Part shown: in pieces, positions 36,751 to 46,348 of the stretch
Numbering within the stretch: position 1 is the first letter of the stretch
How the letters are laid out: every line of letters starts with the position of its first letter
Assembly (NCBI GenBank): GCA_002842465.1
Contig: PHDA01000017.1
Span: 1 to 57,516 of the forward strand
Direction: 5' to 3'
DNA length: 57,516 nucleotides
From: Bacteroidetes bacterium HGW-Bacteroidetes-7
GTDB taxonomy: Bacteria > Bacteroidota > Bacteroidia > Bacteroidales > UBA932
The notes under the pieces: model-generated
What the model was told of the DNA's origin: nothing
Databases searched by the model: none
The model's input: only the letters and a program-made list of their open reading frames with translations
Translations under genes and position numbers: made by a program

Positions 36751-37782
36751 ATGAAATCGCATTTTATCAAGGCATTAATAATCAGTGCTTTTGTGTTTTT
36801 TGTGAATATTCTTCTTTCTCAGCCGGCAAAATTAACATTTGCACCTCAATGGATGCCTCAGGCGCAATTTGCAGGATATTACATTGCTCAGGAGATGGGA
36901 TTTTACAAAGAGGCAGGTATTGAAGTTGAATTTATTCACCCCTCGGCAAATATTCCTGCCACCGACCTTCTATCCTCAGGCAAAGCAGATGTTATCTCTC
37001 TCTTTTTGGTTACCGGAATGTCAGCCAGAACAGAGGGTATGGATATTGTAAATATTTGCCAGCTCTCCCAGCACTCTGCAATATACATAGTTGCAAAGAA
37101 ATCAAGCGGTATTGACAAGCTGGAAAAGCTAAACGGAAAGAAGATAGGGGTCTGGAAAAGCGGGTTTGACGAAGTTCCAAAGGCAATGATGAAAGAGAAA
37201 AAATATAATATTGAATGGGTTCCCATCCTTTTCTCTGTTAACCTTTTTATGCTCGACGGAATTGACGCAATGACGGTAATGTCATATAATGAGTATAATA
37301 ATATCATCAATTGTGGAATTAACGAAGACGAACTCAATGTTTTTCCAATTTCAGAATATGGTTATGATATACCTGAAGACGGCCTCTATTGCCTTCATTC
37401 AACCTACGAAACTAAGAGAGAGGATTTCAAGAAATTCATAGCGGCTACTTTAAAAGGGTGGGATTATGCTGCAGCAAACAAAGCGACTGCCATAGATATT
37501 GTTCTTGACAGAATGAAGAGCGCACACATCCCTGCTAACCGTGTTCATCAGGAGTGGATGCTTGACAGAGTACTTGAGATGATGATGGTTTCAGACAATG
37601 ATGCACAAGACAATGATGCACAAGGCAAGGGAGCTCAAAACAGGAGTTTTCTAAATAAGAGAGTAAGAAGAGGAGAGTTGCTTGAATCCGACTTTGACCA
37701 GACGGCAAAAATAATTAATAGCATTTCGGAGAAAAGAGTGAGCTTTAAATTCGATGAATTCTACAAACCCCTTAACAGGTAA
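36751..37782 (+). CDS. NMT1/THI5-like periplasmic binding protein
   Basis: Exported protein of 343 residues (signal peptide about 1-24, ending LLSQ; no lipobox). It has the NMT1/SsuA fold: LTFAPQWMPQAQFAGYYIAQEMGFYKEAGIEVEFI, LLSSGKADVISLF, LNGKKIGVWKSGF. Family members bind thiamine-pyrimidine, taurine or similar ligands for ABC import, or act as sensor inputs. The usual SsuBC-type permease is not here; the gene directly after it (9 bases) is a SpoIIE-type phosphatase with an extracytoplasmic sensor domain. I therefore favour a ligand-presenting role in signalling. Residues about 282-296 are three tandem 5-residue units (DNDAQ, DNDAQ, GKGAQ). Confidence 0.85.
   Translation: MKSHFIKALIISAFVFFVNILLSQPAKLTFAPQWMPQAQFAGYYIAQEMGFYKEAGIEVEFIHPSANIPATDLLSSGKADVISLFLVTGMSARTEGMDIVNICQLSQHSAIYIVAKKSSGIDKLEKLNGKKIGVWKSGFDEVPKAMMKEKKYNIEWVPILFSVNLFMLDGIDAMTVMSYNEYNNIINCGINEDELNVFPISEYGYDIPEDGLYCLHSTYETKREDFKKFIAATLKGWDYAAANKATAIDIVLDRMKSAHIPANRVHQEWMLDRVLEMMMVSDNDAQDNDAQGKGAQNRSFLNKRVRRGELLESDFDQTAKIINSISEKRVSFKFDEFYKPLNR
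37594..37638 (+). repeat. 15-bp coding tandem repeat inside the NMT1-like gene
   Basis: GACAATGATGCACAA occurs twice in a row (37594-37608 and 37609-37623), followed by a decayed third unit GGCAAGGGAGCTCAA. The frame is kept, adding a hydrophilic loop of five residues per copy. Exact copies suggest recent slippage and possible length variation. Confidence 0.8.
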
Positions 37783-37791
37783 CTATCAGCT

Positions 37792-46100: not shown

Positions 46101-46348
46101 ACAGAATCACTGCAAGAGTTGATATACTGAATTTTACCAACCTGATTAACCGCAACTGGGGAGTGAGCAAGACCCTGATAACCACCCAGCCGCTCATACT
46201 TAACGGAATGGTAGCACATGATGGTGGAGTTAAGCCGGTTTACACCCTTAGGGCAGTTAATAACCAGTTGATTAACAAATCACTAATCACCACCGCCACC
46301 ATCAACGACGTCTTCCGCCTTCAGTTTTCTATAAGGTGGGATCTTTAA
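43103..46348 (+). CDS. Oar-like TonB-dependent outer-membrane receptor
   Basis: 1081 residues. The signal peptide ends near residue 24 (TSAYSQ), followed by a CarboxypepD_reg domain about 28-110 ([39 protein letters not shown]), a plug-like region about 115-240 ([48 protein letters not shown]) and a large barrel ending [10 protein letters not shown]. The TKSGTN and Oar-type layout differ from SusC. It overlaps the binding-protein gene as ATGA, so it is the last gene of the operon and would bring the substrate across the outer membrane for the ABC importer. It converges on the M16 gene. Confidence 0.92.
   Translation: [1081 protein letters not shown]

Follow-up and report, generated by a model that had tools for sequence, protein, structure and literature searches.

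What does a partner-switching module control when its genes lie inside an uptake operon? This question is raised by a DNA stretch of 57,516 nucleotides (contig PHDA01000017.1 of Bacteroidetes bacterium HGW-Bacteroidetes-7, hereafter the window), which comes from a genome assembly of 2.39 Mb in 42 contigs. Between positions 36,751 and 46,348 of its plus strand, eight genes encode in order an NMT1/THI5-type binding protein, a dCache-HAMP-SpoIIE phosphatase, an RsbW-like kinase, a STAS antagonist, a HisMQ-type permease, an ABC ATPase with an extra C-terminal domain, a solute-binding lipoprotein and an Oar-like outer-membrane receptor. The intergenic gaps measure 9, -8, -4, 33, -4, 12 and -4 bases in order. 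Hence the overlaps and short gaps (-8 to 33) that a first-pass annotation had described were all present on this strand together with the named domains, and the eight-gene operon is real and tightly coupled. We consider it moderately probable that the ABC importer is the output of this partner-switching module and that the phosphorylation state of the STAS protein gates it. Such a design suggests that pumps can be switched via direct protein contact, with gene expression unchanged.

The ATPase gene (41,175-42,266, PF00005 E 3.4e-37, GlnQ/ArtP class) starts at 41,175 in an ATGA overlap with the permease stop, and its product carries the Walker A, signature, Walker B and His motifs. The extra domain (ABC-C domain) occupies its last 137 residues (227-363, positions 41,853-42,263). 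When the whole window ATPase was scanned with Pfam, the extra domain was not reported at E 0.1; the isolated domain gave a sub-threshold match to HATPase_c_2 (E 0.017, 15.6 bits versus a cut-off of 27.4). HATPase_c_2 was the best Pfam match in 6/6 isolated C-terminal domains tested, and it exceeded the cut-off in one of them (locus L083). A fused-domain profile was built from an alignment of 13 loci. In profile-profile comparison it matched the operon's own kinase (hhalign E 3.6e-7, probability 92.9), and it found stand-alone proteins of ~140 amino acids (aa) in other genomes at E 1e-10 to 1e-4, one of which is the kinase of genome G230. The AlphaFold model of the domain (pLDDT 85.3) gave SpoIIAB, UsfX and RsbW as its best fold matches in the Protein Data Bank (Foldseek E from 7.5e-6; SpoIIAB probability 1.00). 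Together with the L083 match, these results bear out the first-pass proposal of an RsbW-like domain on the ATPase. As for the full-length model (pLDDT 88.8), its ATPase part comes closest to 4yms and ArtP, at 53% identity. The structure matches listed for this model covered mainly the ATPase part, or more only at an rmsd of ~5-11 Å, and none of them is described with an RsbW-like domain. Sequences of solved structures searched with the A5 profile of the fused domain gave nothing below E 0.38.

Across 70 fused ATPases, the motifs of the ATPase itself are intact in nearly all, while the ATP site of the kinase-like part is lost. The N-box Asn and the G1 Asp were each kept in 0/70, and the first two G2 Gly in 2/70 and 10/70. 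The Glu at the catalytic-base position is retained in 62/70, and we assume for it the role known from SpoIIAB. Because neither the N-box Asn nor the G1 Asp is kept in any member, the fused domain is, judged from its sequence, a degenerate RsbW/SpoIIAB homologue and a predicted pseudokinase rather than a kinase. In L089 (9695-12649), permease, binding domain, ABC ATPase and RsbW-like domain are all encoded in one frame of 984 aa.

The stand-alone switch proteins have kept their catalytic residues. The window kinase (39,713-40,141, PF13581 HATPase_c_2, E 1e-24, over the cut-off) has intact catalytic motifs, and its start is most likely the ATG at 39,713 rather than the listed TTG at 39,704. In the stand-alone kinases of linked loci (linkage is defined below), the N-box Glu and Asn, the G1 Asp and three G2 Gly were found in 20/20. 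The single-domain STAS antagonist (40,138-40,467, PF01740 E 2.7e-19, TIGR00377 over its cut-off) has its Ser55 at the position of the SSG-motif serine of SpoIIAA when aligned to 1th8 and 1tid (Ala in the 1tid chain), and this serine is retained in 18/18 linked-locus proteins. The phosphatase (37,792-39,720, PF07228 E 9.3e-52) combines its SpoIIE (PPM) domain with HAMP and with MCP-like_PDC_1 and dCache_1 matches that mark an extracytoplasmic sensor. Five Asp positions, which we take to be the metal-binding residues of SpoIIE, are conserved in 19/19 phosphatases of linked loci. NCBIfam gave a SiaA match below cut-off for the window phosphatase, and its nearest named relatives come from a Paludibacter and a Bacteroidales metagenome-assembled genome (MAG), at 53 and 55% identity, in a scan from which close records may be missing; this makes membership of Bacteroidales most likely for the window genome.

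Linkage between switch and fused ATPase was then counted. A fused ATPase was scored as linked when a SpoIIE or kinase gene lay within a stretch of up to ~20 kb (~10 kb a side), a STAS gene alone (L035, L036, L076) being uncounted; some test and control stretches were shortened by contig ends. Linkage was found for 24/70 fused ATPases, and for 20/66 when four loci found through SpoIIE (L174, L178, L186, L226) were left out. The controls were 40 ABC ATPases without the domain, 20 from ten genomes of family f136 and 20 from the order's fused-ATPase genomes (16 of these in the window's genus), and a SpoIIE, kinase or STAS gene was near 0/40. The difference is significant (20/66 versus 0/40, Fisher p 2.1e-5) and persists with the window's genus removed (14/55 versus 0/40, p 2.1e-4; versus the 24 controls outside the genus, p 0.0035), these and the co-occurrence p values below being optimistic, since the tests ignore phylogeny and the rows are related. 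The fused ATPase of L092 was included from its own frame, and the STAS genes of L161 and L286 came from tblastn, with counts unaffected.

The arrangement of the linked genes varies. In five f136 loci (L146, L147, L148, L155, L156), NMT1 and SpoIIE genes are followed by binding proteins and permeases, the fused ATPase, STAS and kinase, so that the transporter genes lie inside the switch genes, and the permease-ATPase junction overlaps by 4 bases. L153 and L283 show the order fused ATPase, STAS, kinase, and further switch-transporter arrangements were met in L092, L082, L149, L178 and L226. The link between switch and importer that the first-pass annotation had proposed recurs across genera, classes and phyla; the Oar receptor was found only in the window's genus.

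The fused ATPase was followed in samples of 25 genomes of the genus, 393 of the order and 395 of the phylum. In the genus it occurs in 10/25 genomes. The full eight-gene order is present in the window, G015, G014 and G022, and probably also in G008, split there over two contigs. In G018 the cassette (phosphatase 79% identical to that of the window) is joined through overlaps of 4 bases to a different fused transporter (43% identity), whose permease bears family-3 binding domains. In G006, G023 and G013, the permease, fused ATPase, lipoprotein and Oar genes stand without the cassette, and in the latter two a STAS-TCAD9/APH protein is encoded downstream. This protein (L035:15163-17406, L036:14127-16250) fuses STAS to a long part with matches to TCAD9 (ternary complex associated domain 9) and to APH-type kinase; it sits 3' of Oar in congeners whose fused importer is cassette-free.

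In the order, 21/393 genomes carry the fused ATPase (match rows judged by reading; the frame in G135 is broken). In the phylum sample, 44/395 genomes matched at E 1e-8 or better, 38 of them in family f136, although some match rows, such as that of G447, are not fused ATPases; 38 of the 48 listed non-window match rows were fetched with flanks. Compared with the SpoIIE of a MAG labelled uncultured Chlorobiaceae, the SpoIIE proteins of three f136 loci (L155, L156, L161) show 74-78% identity and those of four further f136 loci 65-67%, no nearer than L174 and L186 (67-68%). We read f136 as probably corresponding to Chlorobiaceae. Two single MAG loci, one labelled Methylovulum (L174) and the other Desulfobacteraceae (L186), also have a fused ATPase. 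Because these two group together in the tree, next to f136 rows, transfer or mis-binning is possible. Fused ATPases are thus not confined to Bacteroidota; a Chlorobi-type family has them too, as does one MAG locus from each of two more phyla. Whether they form a widespread class of ABC importers in which a pseudokinase domain is built in to receive a phospho-switched STAS protein, with uptake gated post-translationally by a sensor-phosphatase and kinase of their own, we regard as about evenly balanced.

Co-occurrence across genomes points in the same direction as linkage. In the genus, SpoIIE (E 1e-30 or better) was present in 10/10 genomes with the fused ATPase versus 2/15 without it (p 2.0e-5). 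The order gave 21/21 versus 189/372 at the same threshold (p 1.2e-6, uncorrected for phylogeny). A STAS gene was found in 23/23 fused-ATPase genomes tested and also in G001 and G019, and in 0/3 congeners lacking both fused ATPase and phosphatase (G004, G011, G016). HATPase_c_2 and SpoIIE were each present in 34/34 fused-ATPase genomes tested, but HATPase_c_2 is common regardless (11/14 control genomes). Ten genomes with unlinked fused ATPases were further inspected at their SpoIIE or kinase genes. Six of them (G157, G380, G274, G109, G319, G025) have the cassette elsewhere, and that of G157 is followed by a 504-aa permease joining a solute-binding domain to HisM. NMT1-SpoIIE and kinase-STAS lie on two contigs in G182, and kinase-STAS and SpoIIE lie apart on one contig in G370.

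On these grounds the following mechanism may be proposed. A periplasmic signal, perhaps via the NMT1-type binding protein, would set how active the dCache-HAMP-SpoIIE phosphatase is. The RsbW-like kinase would phosphorylate Ser55 of the STAS protein, and the phosphatase would take the phosphate off. Unphosphorylated STAS could pair with either the live kinase or the dead kinase-like domain on the ATPase. Docking on the latter would switch the importer, and phosphorylation would release STAS again. By analogy with MlaB on MlaF, docking most likely turns the importer on or into a stable assembled state. In MlaFB of E. coli, the STAS protein MlaB binds the ABC ATPase MlaF and is needed for its stability, and the phosphomimetic MlaB T52E at the aligned site weakens MlaF binding, according to the accessible part of that paper (PMC7367683). 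Binding of STAS to the ATPase, the direction of control, the ligand and the place of the importer as output, not input, are what we infer for the window.

Could the switch act on a sigma factor instead? As the first-pass annotation stated, no sigma gene belongs to the window operon (eight genes, Pfam and sigma scan). Its further statement that a sigma factor is the normal target of partner switching is too narrow, since SiaABCD of Pseudomonas aeruginosa acts on a diguanylate cyclase, a non-sigma output, in the part of the source consulted (PMC8457831). Sigma-like genes were found at 1/23 linked, 1/46 unlinked and 6/40 control loci, so they are not enriched near linked loci; four sigma proteins went into the scan model, and two of these came from loci that were themselves scored as linked or unlinked. 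Sigma-B-like control was rejected as a full explanation, because the run is sigma-free and sigma-like genes are not enriched near the linked loci.

Several observations weigh against an importer gated by STAS. Besides the optimistic p values mentioned above, the linkage label is clustered on the tree, with 13 changes versus 20 for shuffled labels; at least 10 of the 13, however, are forced by well-supported branches, and this recurrence speaks for the gated importer. This 70-row tree omits L043 (contig-edge fragment of G008), L093 (broken frame), L150 (same locus as L149), L147 (near-identical second copy in G499; linked) and L160 (truncated; linked), and L178 stands on a very long branch (4.48), its position being unsure. 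No SpoIIE or kinase gene was found in the stretch read for 46/66 fused ATPases. Conversely, among SpoIIE-centred loci (the best 80 of at least 588, of which 77 were mapped, without L204, L215 and L219), 73/77 are not beside a fused ATPase, and L173 of a Chlorobiaceae MAG shows SpoIIE-STAS-kinase with no importer between. The first-pass annotation had held that its hypothesis would fall if transport genes were absent beside the switch in nearly all relatives. That outcome is only partly avoided. The link is strong when viewed from the fused ATPase (20/66 versus 0/40), but from the side of the phosphatase a fused ATPase is usually absent: 4/77 SpoIIE loci adjoin a fused ATPase, 3/77 another importer type and 5/77 an ABC-2 type transporter, and in the genus the phosphatase lies beside the fused importer in 5/12 phosphatase-bearing genomes, a sixth (G008) being probably split over two contigs. 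Genomes G472 and G656 carry a fused ATPase, but no cassette of this type was found in them; their SpoIIE/STAS/HATPase set is of another kind, and that of G472 adjoins a WecG-type glycosyltransferase. Genome G006 carries SpoIIE and STAS genes besides a pair of fused ATPases, yet no kinase of this type was found in it; its best HATPase_c_2 match (E 3.9e-11) resembles in length and score one that lies in a hydrogenase operon of the window genome. ECF-type (extracytoplasmic function) sigma genes occur in the clusters of G230 and G494, and G010 and G006 have them near SpoIIE, so there may be a transcriptional output; the sigma gene of G230 lies just outside the stretch counted in the scan. The MlaB analogy itself is not simple, as the unphosphorylatable MlaB Thr52Ala is non-functional, and phospho-regulation of MlaB is unproven and left open in the text seen of that paper (PMC7367683).

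How well do other explanations fit? The importer might be a sensor rather than an output, its fused domain capturing or releasing STAS by transport state and so reporting flux to the kinase and another target, for example gene expression. The STAS-docking fold of the domain would serve this direction equally, in many linked operons the permease is fused to several binding domains, and there are the ECF-type sigma genes of the G230 and G494 clusters. On the other hand, the linked operons mapped share no other output gene, sigma-like genes are not enriched (1/23 versus 6/40), and SpoIIE has a periplasmic sensor of its own. In the window genome, moreover, the only other HATPase_c_2 and SpoIIE genes (L303:7420-7833 and L304:6398-7618) each adjoin a gene with an Fe-only hydrogenase large-subunit domain. 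We consider a sensing importer unlikely, if worth keeping in mind. Somewhat less likely still is that the C-terminal domain has lost STAS binding and is regulatory or dimerising, the cassette being linked by a shared physiological role (the same ligand) and without contact. The 46/66 unlinked fused ATPases, the two genomes without a cassette of this type and the switches beside transporters that lack the domain would all fit such an account, as would the precedent of other importers, such as MetN, which are said to bear other C-terminal regulatory domains. It is opposed by the homology of the domain to a family that binds STAS antagonists, by the presence of that family's classical partners among the linked genes, and by the absence of such linkage from ordinary ATPases (0/40).

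A chance neighbourhood, in which an ordinary partner switch controls something elsewhere and is merely co-transcribed with an importer, appears very improbable. The core NMT1-SpoIIE-kinase-STAS cassette is indeed common and usually has other neighbours. However, the linkage counts (20/66 versus 0/40) disfavour it, and so do the repeated re-association on the tree, the re-pairing in G018, the interleaved gene order in a distant family and the co-occurrence in genus and order. Control of the importer by the STAS protein thus remains the reading we favour.

The switch was also met beside transporters of other kinds. Three of the 77 SpoIIE loci (L163, L169, L228) adjoin an ABC_sub_bind/BPD_transp_2 importer. 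This second importer type follows the NMT1/SpoIIE cassette or part of it at L163:12909-17861, L169:7017-11027, L228:3643-9534 and L082:11784-15810, and it consists of an ABC_sub_bind protein, a 406-418 aa protein with an N-terminal STAS domain, a BPD_transp_2 permease and a 270-aa ATPase. Another five, all Prevotellaceae (L198, L202, L217, L218, L221), adjoin an ABC-2 type transporter. Here, as at L217:5232-11778, L218:7690-14247 and L221:9764-16295, a SpoIIE-HATPase fusion precedes a 963-969 aa transporter with ABC_tran and ABC2_membrane and an N-terminal 235 aa without a Pfam match; next come a 267-aa protein and, in three loci, a STAS gene. No RsbW-like domain was detectable in the four of these transporters scanned (that of L202 has the same length and order). 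UvrA was ruled out as the identity of the ABC match, which Pfam assigns to an ABC-2 type transporter. Switches beside transporters without the fused domain either widen the theme or weaken the specific role of the domain, and in the latter case they count against our reading. If the widespread-class reading holds, these two types would be independent recruitments of the switch to transport. At loci without the fused importer (L109:2473-7486, L110:774-5776, L112:7817-12718, L163:3835-8946), a gene trio precedes the NMT1/SpoIIE cassette. It encodes a PrsW-family protease (scanned in L109 and L110), a 310-360 aa protein and a ~980 aa protein that is Pfam-less where scanned.

The remaining genes of the operon are those of uptake. 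The NMT1/THI5-type periplasmic binding protein (36,751-37,782, PF09084 E 6e-37) is possibly a ligand presenter for the sensor-phosphatase, and an NMT1 gene immediately precedes dCache-SpoIIE in many related loci. The HisMQ-type permease (40,501-41,178, PF00528 E 6.1e-14, TIGR01726 over its cut-off), the GlnQ/ArtP-class ATPase and the family-3 solute-binding lipoprotein (42,279-43,106, PF00497 E 5.6e-17) are parts of the kind found in polar amino-acid importers, and the permease, being PF00528, is not of the MlaE type. None of the three reached an NCBIfam equivalog cut-off among the matches listed. The lipoprotein has its lobes in the order C-half then N-half, with an ArtJ C-half at residues 26-154 and the PF00497 N-half at 178-241. 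The fused permease of L039 (9659-12652) begins with such a half lobe, as if lobes were paired across units. The 1081-aa Oar-like receptor (43,103-46,348, PF13620 CarboxypepD_reg and PF25183 OMP_b-brl_4) closes the run. Its profile found no match in the fused-ATPase loci mapped outside the window's genus; the receptor is a genus-level addition, coupled in the window and its congeners and outside the wider module.

A Bacteroidota-type promoter pattern gave 6 matches in the window versus 3.4 expected, none of them before the operon. A generic promoter scan gave 35 sites versus 23 expected, scattered through genes, and terminator-like sites numbered 6 versus 8 expected, none in the gaps between operon genes. 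Upstream, at 36,045-36,184, lies an element of 140 bases bounded by perfect terminal inverted repeats of 20 bases. With 8 copies of the repeat in the genome versus 0 for the reversed control, it is probably a small transposable element.

As the STAS protein, its presumed kinase and phosphatase and the ATPase receiver domain are encoded together, STAS phospho-control of an ABC ATPase becomes directly testable. If it is true, nutrient uptake would be open to rapid post-translational gating by partner switching in Bacteroidota, in the Chlorobi-type family and, from single MAG loci, in two further phyla. In the literature searched, which left most subscription papers out of reach, neither the combination nor an import ATPase with an RsbW-type pseudokinase was reported by title or abstract start, and no paper brought SpoIIE, STAS, partner switching and an ABC transporter together. 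A keyword look-up in PMC8256260 and PMC11418112 likewise found no transporter output.

Compared with known systems, the switch itself is conventional. It resembles RsbU/RsbV/RsbW and SpoIIE/SpoIIAA/SpoIIAB of Bacillus in its phosphatase, its STAS protein with a conserved serine and its HATPase_c_2 kinase, with the same catalytic residues. Unlike the Bacillus systems, the window operon is sigma-free, and its importer ATPase carries a second, degenerate kinase-like domain. SiaA and SiaB are reportedly a phosphatase/kinase pair acting on a switch protein, a set of parts also found here, and the SiaB-SiaC structure (6kko) is a fold match of the fused domain. As far as the available text on SiaABCD goes, that system has no importer and no fused pseudokinase, and its output is a diguanylate cyclase. 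With MlaB-MlaF, the window shares a single-domain STAS protein with Ser/Thr at the phospho-site; STAS-ATPase binding is a feature of MlaB that would apply here by inference. MlaF differs in having, in the portion of the source seen, a short C-terminal extension and no kinase-like domain, and the window permease is of the HisMQ type. MetNI and MalK likewise are ABC import ATPases with an added C-terminal domain, yet neither they nor similar proteins among the structure matches listed are described with an RsbW-like one. Hence the parts belong to known families, and what appears new is the way they are combined, in particular the RsbW-type pseudokinase built into an import ATPase.

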